Shown here piece by piece: positions 54,537-63,383 of a stretch of DNA of 64,000 nt. Both the position numbers and the translations under genes were made by a program. Below the pieces are notes generated by a model. It was not told where the DNA came from and searched no databases. It saw only the letters and a list, made by a program, of their open reading frames with translations. Position 1 is the first letter of the stretch. The number at the start of each line of letters is the position of its first letter. The stretch covers positions 124,001-188,000 of the forward strand of contig NZ_SMCS01000001.1 of the NCBI RefSeq assembly GCF_004342265.1. The letters are read 5' to 3'. This stretch comes from Luteibacter rhizovicinus. Lineage in GTDB: Bacteria; Pseudomonadota; Gammaproteobacteria; Xanthomonadales; Rhodanobacteraceae.

Positions 54537-54559
54537 ACCGCCGCCCCATGGGCGGCGGT
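54537..54559 (+). terminator. Intrinsic terminator after the glycine-zipper gene
   Basis: A perfect 10-bp stem (54537-54546 with 54550-54559) with a 3-base loop is followed by TTTC. It isolates the arginine operon from upstream transcription. Confidence 0.7.
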
Positions 54560-54566
54560 TTCATGT

Positions 54567-54594
54567 TGCGCGACGCAACAAATATCGGCATGAT
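54567..54594 (+). promoter_or_regulatory. Candidate promoter of the arginine operon
   Basis: TTGCGC (54567-54572) and CATGAT (54589-54594) are 16 bases apart, a moderate sigma-70 match, giving a start near 54601. The -35 falls within an inverted repeat TGTTGCG-CGA-CGCAACA (54564-54580), a possible operator. It lies just after the terminator of the previous gene and 30 bases before the leader ORF. Confidence 0.45.
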
Positions 54595-54623
54595 GCCGGT
54601 TCTCGATTCCAAGGCCCATCCTT

Positions 54624-54728
54624 GTGACCACCGCCGTCTACACCGCGAATGTTCTGACCAGCGCCCGCATGGCCGCAGGAATGACGTCGCGTGCTCGTCG
54701 ACCGTACATGGGATACATGGCCGGGTAG
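54624..54728 (+). CDS. Candidate arginine leader peptide (34 aa)
   Basis: An ORF of 34 codons starts at GTG 54624 (AAGG 9 bases upstream) and stops at TAG 54726-54728. It has four Arg codons: CGC at 54666, and CGT, CGT and CGA at 54690, 54696 and 54699, three within four codons. Alternative in-frame starts at ATG 54669 and ATG 54681 keep the Arg cluster. The stop codon overlaps the antiterminator arm (54719-54726) and the terminator follows 30 bases later. This is the layout of known amino-acid leader peptides (his, leu, thr), here for arginine. No homology is claimed; the role is inferred from layout. Confidence 0.55.
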   Translation: MTTAVYTANVLTSARMAAGMTSRARRPYMGYMAG

Positions 54729-54785
54729 GCTGTCGCGCGCGTTTCATCCGTATCGACTAAAAACCCGGCCTAGTGCCGGGTTTTT
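54719..54785 (+). promoter_or_regulatory. Candidate attenuator: antiterminator and terminator of the arginine operon
   Basis: The terminator hairpin is 54759-54769 with 54775-54785 (11-bp stem including A/T pairs, 5-base loop), with the T run 54781-54786. The segment GGCCGGGT (54719-54726) is fully complementary to ACCCGGCC (54763-54770), the 5' arm of the terminator. The two structures are mutually exclusive. A ribosome stalled at the Arg codons leaves 54719-54726 free to form the antiterminator; a ribosome at the stop codon covers it and allows termination. Confidence 0.6.
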
Positions 54786-54836
54786 TCGTTTCTGGCTCCT
54801 TAACTCTTTTCTCTCACCGACCCGAACTGGATTGCC

Positions 54837-55871
54837 ATGACCGTTCGCCACTTCCTTTCCACCCAGGATTACAGCCGCGCCGAGATCGACGCCCTGCTTG
54901 AGCAGGCCGCCGAGTTCAAGCGCTCGCCCGCAGGTCAGCAACTGGCCGGCAAATCCATCGCGCTGATGTTCTTCAATCCCTCGATGCGCACCCGTACCAG
55001 TTTCGAGCTGGGCGCGTTCCAACTGGGCGGTCATGCCGTGGTGCTTTCGCCGGGCAAGGATGCGTGGCCGATCGAGTTCGAAGTGGGCAGCGTCATGGAC
55101 GGGGACACCGAGGAACACATCGCGGAAGTGGCGCGGGTGCTGTCGCGCTATGTGGATCTGATCGCCGTGCGTGCTTTCCCGAAGTTCGTCGACTGGTCGG
55201 TCGATCGCGAGGACAAGGTGCTGAAGTCCTTCGCCCGGTACGCCACGGTGCCGGTCATCAATCTCGAAACCATCACCCATCCCTGCCAGGAGCTGGCGCA
55301 CGCGCTGGCCCTGAAGGAGCATCTGGGCAACCTGCAGAACCGCAAGTACGTGCTGACCTGGACCTACCATCCGAAGCCGCTGAACACGGCCGTGGCGAAC
55401 TCGGCGCTGCTGATCGCGACGAAGATGGGCATGGACGTCACGCTGCTGTGTCCGACGCCCGAATACATCCTCGACGAACGCTATATGGAGTTCGCGAAGG
55501 CCAACGCCCGGGAGAACGGCGGTTCGTTGCAGGTCTCGCACGACATCGAAGCGTCCTACCGCGACGCCGACGTGATCTATGCGAAGAGCTGGGGTGCGAT
55601 TCCGTACTTCGGCCGCTGGGACGAAGAAAAGGCCATTCGCGAGGCCAATCGTCACTTCATCGTGGACGAAGCCAAGATGGCGCTCACGAACAATGGGCTC
55701 TTCAGTCATTGCCTGCCGCTTCGCCGCAACATCAAAGCGACCGATGCGGTCATGGATTCCCCTGCATGCATCGCCATCGACGAAGCAGAGAACCGCCTGC
55801 ACGTGCAGAAGGCGGTGATGGCTTCGCTTATTTCGCAGTCGTCGGGCGGGAAGTCCGGCCTCGGCTTCTGA
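54837..55871 (+). CDS. argF': N-acetylornithine carbamoyltransferase (AOTCase)
   Basis: The product (344 aa) carbamoylates N-acetylornithine to N-acetylcitrulline, unlike the ornithine enzyme of most bacteria. The carbamoyl phosphate loop is FFNPSMRTRTSFE. In the following segment VGSVMDGDTEEHI, Glu92 matches the residue that in Xanthomonas AOTCase gives specificity for the acetylated (rather than succinylated) substrate. The HCLPLRRNIKATD segment and THPCQE also match. It is the first structural gene of the operon, behind the candidate attenuator. AOTCase is known from Xanthomonadales and explains the deacetylase later in the operon. Confidence 0.93.
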   Translation: MTVRHFLSTQDYSRAEIDALLEQAAEFKRSPAGQQLAGKSIALMFFNPSMRTRTSFELGAFQLGGHAVVLSPGKDAWPIEFEVGSVMDGDTEEHIAEVARVLSRYVDLIAVRAFPKFVDWSVDREDKVLKSFARYATVPVINLETITHPCQELAHALALKEHLGNLQNRKYVLTWTYHPKPLNTAVANSALLIATKMGMDVTLLCPTPEYILDERYMEFAKANARENGGSLQVSHDIEASYRDADVIYAKSWGAIPYFGRWDEEKAIREANRHFIVDEAKMALTNNGLFSHCLPLRRNIKATDAVMDSPACIAIDEAENRLHVQKAVMASLISQSSGGKSGLGF

Positions 55872-55919: not shown

Positions 55920-57125
55920 ATGTCCAGCAAAGATATCGTCCTCGCGTTTTCCGGCGGCCTCGACACCAGCTTCTGCGTGCCTTACCTCATGGAGCAGGGT
56001 TATAGCGTCCATACCGTTTTCGTCGACACCGGTGGCGTGTCGGCCGAGGAGCGCGAGTACATCGAGCAGCGCGCCATCGAACTGGGCGCCGCCTCGCATC
56101 GCACGGCCGATGCCGCGCAGGCGATCTGGGACACCTTCGTTACGCCGCTGATCTGGGCTGGCGAGTTCTATCAGGGCCAGTACCCGCTGCTGGTGTCGGA
56201 TCGTTACCTCATCGTGCAGGAGTCGCTGAAGCGCTGCGACGAACTCGGCACGAAGTACTTCGCGCACGGCTGCACGGGCATGGGCAACGACCAGGTCCGT
56301 TTCGACCTGACCGTGAAGGCCCTGGGCGACTACACCATCGTTGCGCCGATCCGCGAAATCCAGCGCGAACACACCCAGGTCCGCGCGTACGAACAGAAGT
56401 ACCTCGAAGACAAGGGCTTCGAAGTCCGCGCCAAGACCAAGCACTACACGATCAACGAGAACGTGCTCGGGGTGACCATATCCGGCGGCGAAATCGACGC
56501 ATGGGAAATTCCGGGCGAGGGCGCCATCGGCTGGTGTGCGCCGCGTAGCGAATGGCCGCTGGAACCGCTGCAGATTACGCTCGGCTTCGAGAAGGGCAAC
56601 GCGGTATCGCTGAACGGCAAGGCGGCCAGCGGCCCGGAGATCCTGCAGTTCCTGAATCGCGAGCTGGCCCGCTACGGCGTGGGCCGCAGCATGTATACCG
56701 GCGATACGAACATCGGCCTCAAGGGTCGCATCGTGTTCGAGGCGCCCGCGCTGACGGGCCTGCTCACGGCGCATCGTGCGCTTGAGGAAACCGTGCTCAG
56801 CAAGCAGCAGAATCGTTTCAAGCCGGAAATCGGCCGCAAGTGGACCGAAGTCGCCTACGAAGGATTCTTCAACGATCCGATCAAGACCGATCTGGAAGCC
56901 TATCTCGTGTCGACGCAGCGCAAGGTCGACGGCACGGTGATCATCGAAACGCGCGGCGGTTCGGTGTACGCGGTGAAGGTCGAGTCGAAGAACATCCTGC
57001 AGACGTCGAAGGCGACGTACGCGCAGGCGGCCGACTGGGGCGTGGCCGAGGCCGAGGGCTTCATCAAGCTCTACGGCATGAGCTCCACGGTTTGGGCCGA
57101 AGTCGATCGTCAGGCCCGCAAATGA
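55920..57125 (+). CDS. argG: Argininosuccinate synthase
   Basis: The product (401 aa) joins citrulline and aspartate with ATP. The P-loop is [16 protein letters not shown], the segment [19 protein letters not shown] is typical, and the C-terminal oligomerisation helix is present. The sequence is of the long-branch type with [25 protein letters not shown] lies 7 bases before the start. Its stop overlaps the GNAT gene start by 4 bases. Confidence 0.95.
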
Positions 57126-57580
57126 GCGAACTTCGCATCAGCGCGGATAAACACGAGCTCGACGTCGGGCTCGTGCATGCATTCCTGTCGACCCAGTCCA
57201 CCTGGGCCAAAGGCATCCCGCGCGAAACCGTGGAACGTTCCATCGAGCATTCGATCTGTTTCGGCGGCTATGTCGGTGCGGAACAGGTCGCGTTCGCGCG
57301 GGTCATCACCGATCAAGCGACATTCGCCTATCTGGTCGACGTATTCGTGTTGCCCGAGCATCGCGGAAGCGGCTATGCAAAAGCGCTGATGGCCGAGGTG
57401 ATGGCATGGCCTTCGTTGCAGGGGCTGCGCCGTTTCATGCTGGCGACCTGGAATGCCCATGCGCTGTATGCGCCGCTCGGTTTTGCGGCGCCAGGCCGAC
57501 CCGAAACGCTGATGGAACGCTATCATCCGGACGTCTATACGGACGCGGCCAGGCTGGCCGCCCAAAACGGAACCTCATGA
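57122..57580 (+). CDS. GNAT acetyltransferase within the arginine operon
   Basis: The product (152 aa) is a complete small GNAT protein. [34 protein letters not shown] is the core, containing the acetyl-CoA loop (HRGSGYA), split by two strands, and the end [18 protein letters not shown] closes the fold. It overlaps argG and the deacetylase gene by 4 bases each, so it is translated in the operon. The fused synthase in argB already supplies acetylglutamate, so its substrate is unclear; an arginine-pathway or protein target is possible. Confidence 0.78.
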
Positions 57581-58677
57581 ACAAGCTACTGGAAGACACG
57601 CTGACCCACCTGCGCGCGCTGGTCGGGTTCGATACGCGCAACCCGCCCCGAACCATCGGTACCGGCGGGATCTTCGATTACCTGCGTTCGGCCCTGCCGG
57701 GGTTCGATGTGCAGGTGACGGATTTCGGCGCCGGTGCCGTGAATCTGTACGCCGTGCGCGGCAAACCGAAGTATCTGTTCAACGTACACATGGACACCGT
57801 GCCCGACTCCCCGCACTGGACGGCCAGCCCGTTCGAGCTGCGCGTGGACGGCGAGCGCGCAGTGGGCCTCGGTGCCTGCGATATCAAGGGCGCGGCGGCC
57901 GCGTTGGTCGCCGTGGCCCATGCCACCAGCGGCGACATGGCGCTGCTGCTTTCCACGGATGAAGAAGCCAACGACGCGCGTTGCATCGACGGCTTCCTGA
58001 AGACGCCGCGTGACTACGCCGCCATCATCGTCGCCGAACCGACGAAGGGCGAAGCGGTGCTGGCACATCGCGGCATCCATTCGGTGCAGATGAGCTTCAG
58101 CGGCCGCGCGGGTCACGCGTCGGGCGAACAGAAGCCTTCGGACAGCGCGCTTCACCAGGCCATTCGCTGGGGTGCCGCGGCGCTGGACTTCGTGCAGGAT
58201 CAGTCGCACGAACGCTTTGGCGGCCTCACCGGTCTGCGCTTCAACATCGGCAAGGTCGAAGGCGGGATCAAGGCGAACGTCATCGCGCCTACCGCCGACG
58301 TGCGCTTCGGTTTCCGTCCGCTGCCGTCGATGGACGCGGATCGCATGCTGGAAACCTTCCGCACGCTGGTCGAGCCGTATCCGGTCACGTTCGGCGAAAC
58401 CTTCCGCGGCGATTCGCTGCCCGCGGGCGACACGGCCACGGCCGAATCCCGTCGTCTGGCCGCGCGCGATATCGCGGACGAACTCGAGATTCCCGTCGGC
58501 AACGCGGTCGACTTCTGGACCGAATCGGCGCTGTTCTCGGCAGCGGGCTTCACGTCCTTCGTTTATGGCCCCGGGGACATTGCCCAGGCCCATAGTGCCG
58601 ACGAATGGGTCGCCCTCGACCAGCTTCAGCAATACGCGCAAACCATCTACCGGATCGTCGAAAGTGGAAACGCATAA
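57577..58677 (+). CDS. argE': M20-family N-acetylcitrulline/N-acetylornithine deacetylase
   Basis: The product (366 aa) is a metallodeacetylase. Metal ligands occur in [12 protein letters not shown] (HxD), LGACDIKGA (Asp), STDEEAND (Glu-Glu) and the closing QAHSADEW (His). The dimerisation domain is between about 175 and 280 ([19 protein letters not shown]). In the AOTCase pathway the deacetylase acts on N-acetylcitrulline before ArgG. The GNAT gene overlaps its start by 4 bases and argB overlaps its end by 14 bases. Confidence 0.9.
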
Positions 58678-59980
58678 GCACACGCGCAAGACCATCGTCC
58701 GCCTGCTGTCCAGCATGGGCAGCGCGCGGGAGATCCAGCAGTATCTGAAGCGCTTCTCGCAGCTGGATGCGAAGCGGTTCGCCGTGGTCAAGGTCGGCGG
58801 CGCCGTGCTGCGCGACGACCTGCCGGCGCTGACGTCGTCGCTCGCATTCCTGCAGCAGGTCGGCCTGACGCCGATCGTGCTGCATGGCGCGGGTCCGCAG
58901 CTGGACGAAGAACTGTCGGCGGCCGGCATCGAGAAGCATACGGTCAATGGCCTGCGCGTCACGACGCCTGAAGCGCTGGCCATCGTTCGCCGCGTATTCC
59001 AGTCGCAGAACCTGCGGCTGGTCGAAGCGCTGCAGCAGGCCGATACGCGCGCGACATCGGTACCGTCGGGTGTATTCACGGCCGACTATCTCGATCCGGA
59101 AACCTACGGACTGGTCGGCAAGGTGCGGGAAATCAATCTCGCCCCGATCGAAGCGAGCCTACGCGCCGGGTCGATTCCGGTCATCGCCAGCCTTGGCGAA
59201 ACGGATGCGGGCCAGATACTTAACATCAATGCGGACTTTGCCGCGAACGAACTGGTACGTGTATTGCAGCCGTACAAGATCGTTTTTCTCACCGGCACGG
59301 GCGGATTGCTGGACGGCGATGGCGAGATCATCGACTCGATCAACCTGTCCACCGAATACGACCAGTTGCTCGCGCAGCCCTGGTTGCATTCGGGCATGCG
59401 CCTGAAAATCGAACAGATCAAGGACCTGCTGGACGATCTGCCGCTGACCTCGTCGGTGTCGATCACGCGCCCGTCGGAACTGGCCAAGGAGCTCTTCACG
59501 CACAAGGGTTCCGGTACGCTGGTTCGCCGCGGCGAGCGCGTGCTGCGCTTCGAATCGTGGGATGGTGTCGACCTGGAGCGCATGCGCGGCCTGATCGAGT
59601 CCAGCTTCGGCCGTACGCTGGTTTCCGATTACTTCGATCGCACGGATATCTACCGTCTTTACGTCAGCGAAAACTATCGCGCCGCGATGATCCTGACGAA
59701 GGAGGATGGGTTCGCTTATCTGGATAAGTTCGCCGTACTCGACGATGCGCAGGGCGAAGGCCTGGGACGTGCCGTGTGGCAGGTGATGCGCGACGAAAAT
59801 CCGAAACTGTTCTGGCGTTCGCGCCATGGCAATACCATCAATCACTTCTACTACGCCGAATCCGACGGCTGCTTCAAGCAGGATCGCTGGAAGGTGTTCT
59901 GGTACGGTCTCGATAACTTCGCCGATATCGAACGCTGCGTGGCTCATTGCGCCACGCGCGAGCCGACCCTTACGGACTGA
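58664..59980 (+). CDS. argB: Bifunctional N-acetylglutamate kinase/synthase (NAGK-NAGS fusion)
   Basis: The product (438 aa) fuses an amino-acid kinase domain (about 35-280; [52 protein letters not shown]) with a C-terminal GNAT domain (about 290-438; [19 protein letters not shown] is read here as [27 protein letters not shown]). Such fusions (NAGS/K) occur in Xanthomonas and resemble vertebrate acetylglutamate synthase. They make and phosphorylate acetylglutamate and are inhibited by arginine in relatives. GTG 58664 is used as start because it precedes the kinase and overlaps the deacetylase stop by 14 bases. No separate argA is seen. Confidence 0.92.
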
Positions 59981-59986
59981 ATCATC

Positions 59987-60934
59987 ATGTCGAAGAAGAC
60001 TATCGGTATCGTCGGCGCGCGCGGTCATACGGGCGCCGAACTCATTCGCCTCATCGCGAACCACCCGGCACTCGAACTCGCCTTCGTCTCGTCGCGCGAG
60101 CTCGATGGCCAGCGCCTTGCCGACCATAACGACACCTACAAGGGCGAGCTTCGTTTCACGAATCTCGATGCCGAAGCCGTCGCCGCGCAGGGGATGGATG
60201 TCGTCATTCTCGCGTTACCGAACGGCAAGGCGGCACCGTACGTCGAGGCCATCGACAAAGCGGACAAAGGCACGGTAGTGGTCGACCTATCGGCCGACTA
60301 TCGTTTCGACGAGCGCTGGTTTTACGGCCTTCCGGAGCTTTATCGCGAGCGCTGGCGCGGCGAAAAGCGGATCAGCAATCCCGGCTGCTATGCCACGGCG
60401 GTGCAGCTGTCGATCGCGCCAGTGAAAGATCTGCTGGCCGCGCCGCCGGTATCGTTCGGTGTCTCGGGCTATTCGGGTGCGGGCACCACGCCTTCGGATC
60501 GTAACGATCCGGAGAAGTTGCGCGACAACCTGATGCCGTACTCGCTCACCGGTCATATGCACGAGCGCGAAGCCAGCCGGCACCTGGGTGTGCCCGTGGA
60601 ATTCATGCCGCATGTCGCGCCGCATTTCCGCGGTCTTACCGTCACCACCAATCTCTATCTGGCGCGGCCCATGAAGCGCGACGAGGTCGTGGCGCGTTTC
60701 CGTGGCGCTTACGAGAACGAGAAGCTGGTGCGGGTGCTGGACGACGCACCGTGGGTCAGCCGTATCGCGAACAAACACCATGCGGAAGTCGGTGCGTTCG
60801 AGATGTCGGCGGACGGTCGCCGCGTCGTCGTGGTAGCCACGCTGGATAATCTCCTGAAGGGCGCCGCGACGCAGGCGATGCAGAACGTGAATCGCGCGCT
60901 CGGCTTCGACGAATACACCTCCATTCCGGTTTAA
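59987..60934 (+). CDS. argC: N-acetyl-gamma-glutamyl-phosphate reductase
   Basis: The product (315 aa) makes N-acetylglutamate semialdehyde with NADPH. The Rossmann motif is [13 protein letters not shown], the catalytic Cys is in SNPGCYATA, and the active-site His region is [20 protein letters not shown] and [19 protein letters not shown] are further markers of type-1 ArgC. It starts 6 bases past argB. Confidence 0.95.
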
Positions 60935-60949
60935 AAAGGCAACGCTAAG

Positions 60950-62239
60950 ATGACCCAGCCGCTCTGGCAGAAATCCGATAGCAAGGTCGATGCGCGCATC
61001 ATGCGTTTCCTTGCCGGAAACGACGTGATCCTCGATCGCGAGTTCTTCCTGCACGACATCGAAGCGAGCAAGGCGCATGTCGAGGGGCTGGCCAATATCG
61101 GCGTGGTTTCGGGCGACGAATGTGCCGGCTTGCTGCGCGAGCTCGATGCGCTGGCGGTCGACTTTTCGTCCGGAAGCTTTGTGCTGGACGATCGTTTCGA
61201 GGATGGGCACTCCGCTATCGAGGCACGGTTGACGGAGCGCCTTGGCGATGCCGGACGACGCGTGCACACCGGTCGTAGCCGCAACGACCAGATCCTGGTC
61301 GCCACGCGTCTCTGGCTGAAGGAAAAGCTCGGCACGCTCGAAACCCTGTGCCGCGAGATCGCCGGGGTCTGCATCGAACGCGCTGCCGGCGATTCGGTAC
61401 CCATGCCGGGCTATACGCATATCCAGCGCGCGGTGGTGTCGTCGACCGGGATGTGGTTCGCGGCATTCGCGGAAGCCTTTGTGGACAACGCGCTGCGCGC
61501 GCGTCAGGCGTTCGACTGGATCGATGCCAATCCGCTCGGCACGGCCGCCGGTTACGGCGTCAACGTCGCGCTGGACCGCGAGCACACCACGTCGCGGCTC
61601 GGCTTCGCCCGTATGCAGGTGTCGCCGATCTATGCGCAGCTTTCGCGCGGTAAGTTCGAAATGGCAGCGCTGGATGCCGTAGGCACCGCGCTGCTCGATA
61701 CGCGTCGTCTGGCGTGGGATCTGTCGCTGTTCACCACGGCCGAGTTCGATTTCGTCAGCCTGCCGGGCGAGTACACCACCGGCTCGTCGATCATGCCGAA
61801 CAAGCGCAATCCGGACGTCGTCGAACTGCTGCGCGCCAGCTATGCGGCCGTCGCCGCCGCGCGGACGGAAATCGAACAGCTGCTGTCGCTGCCGTCGGGT
61901 TATCAGCGCGACCTGCAGTTTTCGAAGGGTTCGCTGTATCACGGCTTCACGAATGGGCTCGCCGCGCTGGAACTCCTGCCCGATCTGCTGGCGCGGATGG
62001 AATGGAAGGCCGAGCGCATGCGGGCGGCCATCGAGCCGGCGATGTACGCCACCGACGTCGCCATCGAGCAGGCCGTCGCGGGCGTTCCGTTCCGCGATGC
62101 TTATCGTGCCGCCGCGGAAACGGCGGCTTCGGCGGGCGACGGGCGTACGCCCGAGTCCAGCCTCGCGGCACGCGTGTCGCCGGGTGCCGGATACGATCTT
62201 CGGCTGGATGCGCTGCGCGCGCGTCTGACGCGGAGTTGA
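60950..62239 (+). CDS. argH: Argininosuccinate lyase
   Basis: The product (429 aa) releases arginine and fumarate. The fumarase/aspartase signature is [12 protein letters not shown], with HTGRSRNDQ earlier and [16 protein letters not shown] [12 protein letters not shown]. It is shorter at the C-terminus than Escherichia coli ArgH (457 aa) but complete. It starts 15 bases past argC. The last arginine enzyme. Confidence 0.95.
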
Positions 62240-62261: not shown

Positions 62262-63383
62262 ATGGGGAGCGGGTTCGTGGAACAGGCGCTGCCATCCTGG
62301 CGGCGTGCGGTACTCAAAGTCGGCAGCAGCCTGCTCGCCGCCGACGAGGGTGGGCTGAGTCCGCGGTACGCCGCCGCACTGGCGGCCTTCGTCGAGCGCA
62401 GCCGCGCGAACGGGCGCGATGTCGTGATCGTTTCCTCGGGCGCCGTGGCGGCGGGCCGCGCGCTGGCGACGCCAGGGCAGGCGATGGGATTGCCGGCGCG
62501 GCAGGCACTCGCCGCGCTGGGTCAGACGCGGCTGATCGCTCTTTGGCAGGGATTCTTCGACGCACCGGTCGCCCAGGTCCTGCTTACCCACGACGACCTT
62601 CGTCACCGCCGTCGCTACCTCAACGCTCGTTCCACGCTACGTGAACTGCTCGCGCTACGGGCCATTCCCGTCATCAACGAGAACGATACCGTCGCGGTCG
62701 ACGAGCTGAAACTCGGCGACAACGACAATCTCGCCGCGATCGTCGCGGCGCTGGTCGACGCGGATATTCTGCTTATCGCGACGGATATCGGCGGCCTGTA
62801 CAGCGCCAATCCCCGCATAGCGCCGGATGCGGCCCCGATCGACGATGTGGCGGCCGTGACGCCGGAGCTTTACGCGATAGCCGGTGGCAGCGGATCGAGG
62901 TCCGGTACGGGCGGCATGCGCACCAAACTGGAAGCCGCCGAAAAAGCCGCGGCGGCCGGAATAGAAACGATTCTGTTCGACGGCACCGATGCGACAGTCG
63001 TGGGACGGCTGGCCGACGGCATGCTCTCGGGTACCCGTATCCGCGCGCCGCGTACACGGCTGGCGGCACGCAAGTACTGGCTGCGTCACGCGCCTTCGGC
63101 GGGAAGCATCACGATCGATCCGGGTGCGGCGCGCGCCGTGCGCGAACGCGGCGCGTCGTTGCTGCCGGGCGGCGTACTCGGTGCGACCGGCGACTTCGCA
63201 CGCGGCGATGTCGTGGAAATCGCCTGCGAGGAAGACGGTTTGCCGGTCGGTCGCGGCATCAGTCAGTACGCGGCGGTGGATATCCGCCGCATCGCGCGGA
63301 AACACACACGCGACATCGATGCCGTGCTGGGTTATAGCTATGGCGAGAATGTCATCCATCGCGACGATCTGGTCGCGCTGTGA
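62262..63383 (+). CDS. proB: Glutamate 5-kinase
   Basis: The product (373 aa) starts proline synthesis. The amino-acid kinase domain ([52 protein letters not shown]) is followed by a C-terminal PUA domain (from [13 protein letters not shown] to [10 protein letters not shown]). The arginine and proline routes share glutamate, which may explain the joint operon. It starts 22 bases past argH. Confidence 0.95.

Follow-up and report, generated by a model that had tools for sequence, protein, structure and literature searches.

A candidate ribosome-mediated attenuator of the arginine biosynthesis operon in Luteibacter and related genera

A leader peptide, an antiterminator and a terminator upstream of argF'

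The stretch of Luteibacter rhizovicinus DNA analyzed here (the window: 64,000 nucleotides [nt], contig NZ_SMCS01000001.1, positions 124,001 to 188,000, assembly GCF_004342265.1) carries a row of arginine biosynthesis genes. The first structural gene, argF', is preceded by a short leader containing an open reading frame (ORF) with four arginine codons, a segment (A) that can pair with the 5' arm of a terminator (segment B), and the terminator itself, in which B pairs with segment C. A predicted intrinsic terminator (54759-54786) thus lies between the leader and argF'. The parts of the leader, in window coordinates, are the following.

54566..54594, plus strand: promoter-like site found by a loose motif search (-35 TTGCGC, spacer of 17 nt, -10 CATGAT)
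54624..54728, plus strand: leader peptide ORF read from the sequence, with a GTG start, a TAG stop and 34 codons, MTTAVYTANVLTSARMAAGMTSRARRPYMGYMAG
54666..54668, plus strand: Arg-15 codon, of weaker conservation
54690..54692, plus strand: Arg-23 codon, CGT
54696..54701, plus strand: Arg-25 and Arg-26 codons, CGT CGA, the proposed stalling pair, from codon conservation
54719..54726, plus strand: antiterminator segment A, GGCCGGGT, overlapping the leader stop codon, from the sequence and from A:B pairing over the alignment
54759..54769, plus strand: predicted terminator 5' arm; segment B, ACCCGGCC, is 54763-54770
54775..54786, plus strand: predicted terminator 3' arm (segment C) and T tract

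An earlier note on this DNA had proposed an arginine attenuator from these elements. On re-reading the sequence, the ORF with Arg codons at 54666, 54690, 54696 and 54699 was recovered exactly, and segments A and B and the terminator matched to the base. All four Arg codons are present as that note had it, the one at 54666 being less conserved than the other three. A promoter-like site of the loose shape TTGNNN, 16 to 18 nt, NANNNT was found upstream of 129 of 132 distinct leaders, when single-letter shuffles lead one to expect 9.7; a stricter promoter scan of the window found none at the leader.

The leader is conserved as a coding sequence

Full-length argF' was found in 22 of the 23 genomes of the genus, the remaining one being an 80% complete assembly. 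These 22 loci were taken together with the best 80 named loci (Luteibacter, Dyella, Rhodanobacter, Frateuria and others; the nearest were Luteibacter), giving 102 loci, seven of which repeat a place already in the set. The leader core was present in 101 of them, and the last (L066) had a close variant. For the alignment of leaders used below, those more than 0.90 similar to one already chosen were dropped and 82 were kept. One locus (L041) was left out of it for its adapter-like letters at a contig end: contig NZ_JAELTQ010000184.1 (L041:1-100) starts with such letters fused inside the leader, an assembly artefact that we take to be sequencing adapter.

The peptide core MTSRAR is nearly invariant in the Rhodanobacteraceae-like and Xanthomonadaceae-like genomes (families f1 and f2, labels assigned by inference). 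Most of the variation falls on third codon positions: the summed entropy over 17 codons was 6.05, 4.95 and 14.18 for the three positions in 81 distinct leaders that were located through ArgF' and independently of the core (L174, whose leader is cut short, was left out of this count). Such variation is a mark of a translated peptide, and the codon pattern suggests that the ORF is translated. In these 81 leaders, Arg-23, Arg-25 and Arg-26 were always Arg, and Arg-15 was kept in 78. In 18 of the 76 aligned leaders carrying the core, another residue (Tyr, Trp, Ala, Asp or His) stands in place of Arg-15, and this codon is probably not a main sensor. The variable part of the leader is the segment between the core and the final Ala-Gly-stop; Xanthomonas-like leaders, for example, read SAARMASGMTSRARRP, followed by four variable residues and then by AG-stop.

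The core pattern was found in 159 of the 398 genomes of the order, the reversed control giving none among the matches listed, and argF' was the next gene on the same strand in all 50 loci derived from core pattern matches. Outside the order the pattern was found in 0 of 364 genomes (5 of 369 overall, those five belonging to the order). The earlier note had named a lack of conservation in close relatives as refuting the attenuator proposal; the ORF, the Arg codons and both stems are kept there, with compensatory change.

Two alternative stems share one arm

Over the 82 aligned leaders, 91.0% of the A:B cells held standard pairs and 33 were double-change cells; the paired fraction fell to 24 to 55% when the partner was slid by 1 to 3 columns. 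Pairing of B with C was found in 99.8% of cells, with 60 double-change cells. For both stems, the number of paired cells, the number of double-change cells and the covariation score were higher than in all 500 shuffles; measures counting pairs and pair types do not exceed all shuffles for either stem. Segment A and the two terminator arms mostly switch jointly, between GCCGGGT/ACCCGGC and GCTGGGT/ACCCAGC. At the variable middle pair, the A/B/C letters were C/G/C in 42 of 82 leaders, T/A/T in 31, T/G/C in 4 (a G-U pair is kept) and C/A/T in 5 (A:B is broken). On the ArgF' protein tree the A column changes 8 times, the B column 10 times and the two taken jointly 13 times.

A minority of leaders (L155, L168, L173, L179, L206, L111 and L195) have segment A after the stop codon or in another frame. 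The persistence of A in these positions indicates that it is an RNA element and not codons alone. The comparison points to an antiterminator that would exclude the terminator and that has been conserved by compensatory change.

Position of the ribosome and the CGA codon

The distances between the codons and the stems are kept as well: Arg-26 lies 18 nt before A in 64 of 82 leaders, despite the variable residues between them, and the start of A precedes the stop codon by 6 nt in 70 of 82. We folded the RNA for different states of the ribosome, using only the RNA left free and a footprint reaching 14 nt beyond the first base of the A-site codon. A ribosome placed at Arg-26 left the predicted probability of A:B above 0.5 in 77 of 82 leaders, one placed at the stop codon did so in 1 of 82, and without a ribosome it was above 0.5 in 52 of 82. 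This last state differs among leaders, the A:B probability being 1.0 in the window and 0.0 and 0.02 in two Xanthomonadaceae-like leaders (L163 and L178), where A is hidden by a predicted helix; no helix is predicted to hide it in the window. Once the whole terminator is made, it is favored in 76, 69 and 82 of 82 leaders across the ribosome states. Since the terminator wins at equilibrium even when the ribosome is stalled, the switch would have to be kinetic. The choice made by the trp attenuator is likewise kinetic.

At Arg-26, 139 of 141 distinct leaders use CGA. This codon is rare elsewhere: seven arg/pro genes of the window have it at 2 of their 195 Arg codons, and the ArgF' genes of the 82 loci at 33 of 1695. 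We considered whether CGA is kept for pairing with a downstream GTCG and rejected this as the general reason, as no GTCG stands between A and B in 38 of the 77 aligned CGA leaders. Work on the Salmonella his leader describes, in the part available, CGA as slower than CGU and CGC, which are read by the same tRNAs (PMC4046918).

Genomes lacking the peptide core

We sampled 40 genomes without the exact core pattern, of which 39 have a transcarbamylase, at 40 places. A leader and a terminator were found at 34 of these places, a count that leans upwards because the procedure for choosing ORFs favors Arg-rich ones. Ranking ORFs by Arg count biases both this set and the set of leaders that have lost the core, and an out-of-order control was made for it. 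At least 6 contiguous A:B pairs, G-U allowed, were found in 28 of the 34 leaders. The six places without a leader were L189 (f6), L196 (f10), L197 and L198 (f12), L199 (f5) and L200 (f9). L199 is the second transcarbamylase of an f5 genome, and L200 is an f9 transcarbamylase, 41% identical. The genome with two transcarbamylases (G026) has an ArgF'-like one with a leader (L195) and the other, 41% identical, without (L199). Two further observations concern single lineages. In genus g53 (L180 and L182) the core is conserved and the antiterminator segment is degenerate, so that the switch may be decaying there. In L194, which lies before argF' on contig 7 of G029, a piece of the leader appears twice, with an N nearby, possibly an assembly artefact or a real duplication.

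In families f5, f7, f8 and f10, the leaders do not have MTSRAR and retain Arg clusters, such as NPRRRRVLQSTAG, LRRRRRLSQRRAG and IRRRRGTN, standing before argF', argG or argAB. Twenty covariance-model hits of 35 to 73 bits, chosen by hand from the order-wide listing, were followed by argF' in 14 cases, argG in 2, argAB in 1 and no arg gene in 3 (L271, L273 and L276, taken as background). In the control comparison, at least three Arg within six codons stood in 13 of a set of 14 leaders, versus 3 of 27 hits of this model from outside the order; the one remaining leader (L261) escaped the regular expression used for locating, and its Arg run is visible on direct reading. In genus g33 of f10, the Arg leader stands before argAB or argG, not before argF' (L260, L261 and L275), and one genome (G031) has argF' without a leader (L196) and a leader before argAB (L260). 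This suggests that the switch moved, or arose anew, within the pathway.

The covariance model (R1) is unspecific at its E-value limit, matching 89 of 274 genomes of the class and 135 of 150 of the order, mostly at 24 to 41 bits, and we read the matches in this range as similar terminators. The best match outside the order (39.7 bits) was rejected: it falls within the background and lies in a stretch without an arg gene match, where a short Arg-rich frame is present.

Distribution of the ArgR repressor

ArgR is described as highly conserved across many gammaproteobacterial groups in the part of PMC5343134 that deals with it. Of 121 genomes of the order searched with the ArgR domain PF02863, 113 had no match, that of the window among them. 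The eight genomes with a match all belong to f12, and the two f12 places examined (L197 and L198) have no leader. As a control of the search, PF02863 matched 8 of 14 ring control genomes, Escherichia coli included, which is the outcome expected of a sound search.

Relation to the Xanthomonas RNA Xoo5

The Rfam family RF02242 (Xoo5) reached its cut-off in 10 of 18 relatives searched, with up to 148 bits, and the matches lie on the arginine leader. The window itself scored 16.9 bits, below the cut-off of 50. Two amino acid leader families were tried and rejected for the window: RF00512 (Leu_leader) gave 27.2 bits against a gathering score of 50, and Thr_leader a weak match below its cut-off.

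According to passages of the original report, the small RNA (sRNA) Xoo5 was cloned in Xanthomonas between PXO_00354 and PXO_00353 and gave Northern blot bands (2011; PMC3039613). In the same passages PXO_00353 is the gene for N-acetylornithine carbamoyltransferase and PXO_00352 that for argininosuccinate synthase, and two transcripts are mentioned for early growth, of which only the short one was seen later (PMC3039613). These passages do not tie Xoo5 to the arginine genes, and "argF", "arginine" and "leader" occur 0 times in the main text (PMC3039613). If the Rfam model starts at the 5' end mapped there by rapid amplification of cDNA ends, this end would lie 2 nt before the leader ATG (PMC3039613). 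The two coincide in place, the matches sitting on the arginine leader, and differ in classification, since Rfam files Xoo5 as an sRNA gene.

Attenuation and its alternatives

The element is conserved, looks translated, is predicted to switch between two structures and is tied to arginine genes, as judged from its sequence in many genomes. By far the best reading, and one that we regard as very likely, is ribosome-mediated attenuation of the transcription of the arginine biosynthesis operon; the comparative tests and the lack of an ArgR match in the genome support this proposal of the earlier note. Segment B, as the 5' arm of the terminator, could pair with either A or C. When Arg-tRNA is ample, the ribosome would reach the stop codon and cover A, leaving B to pair with C, and transcription would end. 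When it is scarce, the ribosome would wait about 20 nt short of A, over Arg-23 to Arg-26. Segment A would then be free when B emerges, A:B would form first, and the RNA polymerase would continue into argF'. The switch would substitute for the ArgR repressor in a lineage where ArgR is not found.

Several observations weigh against this reading. The A:B pair and pair-type measures do not rise above the shuffles (410 and 387 of 500), the outer A:B pair fails in 40 of 81 leaders, and columns 19, 113 and 18 each share more information with the A column than its partner, column 182, does. The ties to these three unpaired columns indicate that part of the co-variation is shared descent, and a sign test on the tree has only 2 supported pairs, with which significance is impossible. 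The stop codon of L111 lies 12 nt before A, so that a ribosome finishing there would hardly cover A. Two places with ArgF'-like genes (L189 and L196) have no leader, and 6 of the 34 leaders from pattern-negative genomes (L175, L180, L185, L192, L193 and L194) have fewer than 6 contiguous A:B pairs. Once C is made, the predicted terminator probability is above 0.5 in 69 of 82 leaders even with a stalled ribosome. The strict conservation of non-Arg residues in families f1 to f4 is not needed by the mechanism. The Xoo5 data add further difficulties: the Northern bands (PMC3039613), at about 130 and 100 nt, fall short of the approximately 157 nt expected for the terminated RNA, the RF02242 model ends before the terminator, and the cloned 3' end probably does too. 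In the passages available, deletion mutants of seven Xanthomonas sRNAs (the eight minus Xoo8) had no growth phenotype, and these deletions are said to leave the flanking genes unaffected (PMC3039613).

The conserved residues bring to mind an arrest peptide, in which the nascent chain would sense free arginine and stall the ribosome at or close to the stop codon, where it would cover A and bring about termination with no role for uncharged tRNA. The fungal arginine attenuator peptide is the model for such a system. The core G-M-T-S-R-A-R-R is indeed nearly invariant beyond its Arg residues in the Rhodanobacteraceae-like and Xanthomonadaceae-like leaders, but the residues between the core and the Ala-Gly-stop, close to where the ribosome would stall, are variable, and the core is absent from the examined leaders of f5, f7, f8 and f10, where the Arg clusters are the part kept. 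The rare, slow CGA maintained at one Arg fits codon sensing instead, and we consider the arrest peptide improbable. A combined sensor is a tentative possibility, rather doubtful as it stands: the conserved nascent chain G-M-T-S-R-A-R-R-P and the slow CGA would pause the ribosome at one place even in the presence of arginine, amplifying a small drop in Arg-tRNA, so that codon sensing would be joined to nascent-chain pausing in a device that would have replaced ArgR across the order.

Two further explanations are less probable still. The short transcript could be an independent, trans-acting sRNA gene (Xoo5) with an incidental ORF, in keeping with the typing of RF02242 as an sRNA gene, its reaching the cut-off in 10 of the 18 relatives and the Northern bands observed (PMC3039613). 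The protein-coding pattern of variation, the fixed place before arginine genes, the co-variation of the antiterminator and the fixed spacing from the codons to A speak against it, making it very improbable. Least probable of all is a constitutive attenuator, whose leader and terminator would set a fixed level of readthrough without sensing arginine. The finished terminator, favored in most leaders in every ribosome state, agrees with it; yet a fixed level would need neither conserved Arg codons, nor a rare CGA, nor fixed spacing, nor segment A, and ArgR was not found.

If correct, ribosome-mediated attenuation would be a specific and testable way of controlling arginine synthesis throughout a large order (Luteibacter, Dyella, Rhodanobacter, Frateuria and Xanthomonadaceae-like genera) and would give a function to the orphan Rfam sRNA family Xoo5. 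Most sampled genomes of the order have no ArgR match, which suggests that the repressor was exchanged for an RNA switch. The natural variation in stop position, in the length of the Arg run and in the placement of CGA would be material for studies of attenuators.

Genes flanking the leader

The genes downstream of the leader were named by NCBIfam and Pfam models.

54837..55871, plus strand: argF' (N-acetylornithine carbamoyltransferase), first structural gene; NF003384, 604 bits, cut-off 288
55920..57125, plus strand: argG; NF003385, 712 bits, cut-off 603
57122..57580, plus strand: GNAT-family acetyltransferase within the cluster; PF00583, 47 bits, no NCBIfam match at 1e-10
57571..58677, plus strand: argE (acetylornithine deacetylase), start set in the analysis; NF006439, 598 bits, cut-off 345
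58712..59980, plus strand: argAB, acetylglutamate kinase of the synthase-kinase type, start set in the analysis; NF003386, 810 bits, cut-off 417
59987..60934, plus strand: argC; TIGR01850, 318 bits, cut-off 234
60950..62239, plus strand: argH; TIGR00838, 276 bits, slightly below the cut-off of 279.5
62262..63383, plus strand: proB, final gene of the row examined; TIGR01027, 407 bits, cut-off 186

The GNAT-family gene follows argG and precedes argE, and with the ends as set it has a slight overlap with each of them. The synthase activity of argAB is presumed from its type. Upstream of the leader, the window carries a gene for a glycine-zipper protein (PF05433, 53985-54524), followed by a terminator-like hairpin (54537-54559). 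At several Xanthomonadaceae-like loci, the reading frame upstream has an end similar to that of this gene.

Comparison with known systems

Ribosome-mediated attenuators are known for the trp, his, leu, thr and ilv operons of proteobacteria. With these attenuators, of which PMC1183508 covers trp and his, the leader described here shares codons for the end product in a leader peptide, mutually exclusive antiterminator and terminator, and a place before a biosynthetic operon. It differs from them in the amino acid, arginine, in having no predicted protector helix hiding A in the window, and in the strong conservation of the peptide core outside the regulatory codons in f1 to f4. Arginine T-box leaders are named in a passage of PMC1262725. 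T-box leaders work by sensing tRNA charging, and those for arginine control arginine genes at the RNA level in this way. There the uncharged tRNA binds the RNA directly, whereas here the ribosome would be the sensor. In searches of an open-access library we found no attenuator of arginine biosynthesis of this kind; the word arginine is absent from the main text of PMC2965389, and the part of PMC8632094 that lists other leader-ORF motifs has none for arginine.

The earlier note knew of no arginine leader attenuator in gammaproteobacteria. This holds, in the library searched, for arginine synthesis, for which none was found, and has to be narrowed for arginine sensing as such, since orf34 of the Salmonella speF leader, in the account given in part of PMC6386406, senses arginine through two consecutive Arg codons in the control of polyamines. 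In both systems consecutive Arg codons would sense arginine and the position of the ribosome would set the RNA structure. The speF leader acts through Rho termination and RNase G decay and controls ornithine decarboxylase, whereas here an intrinsic terminator would control arginine synthesis. We rate the leader of argF' as a new amino acid member of the trp/his type of attenuation, with the speF leader of Salmonella as the nearest precedent found.
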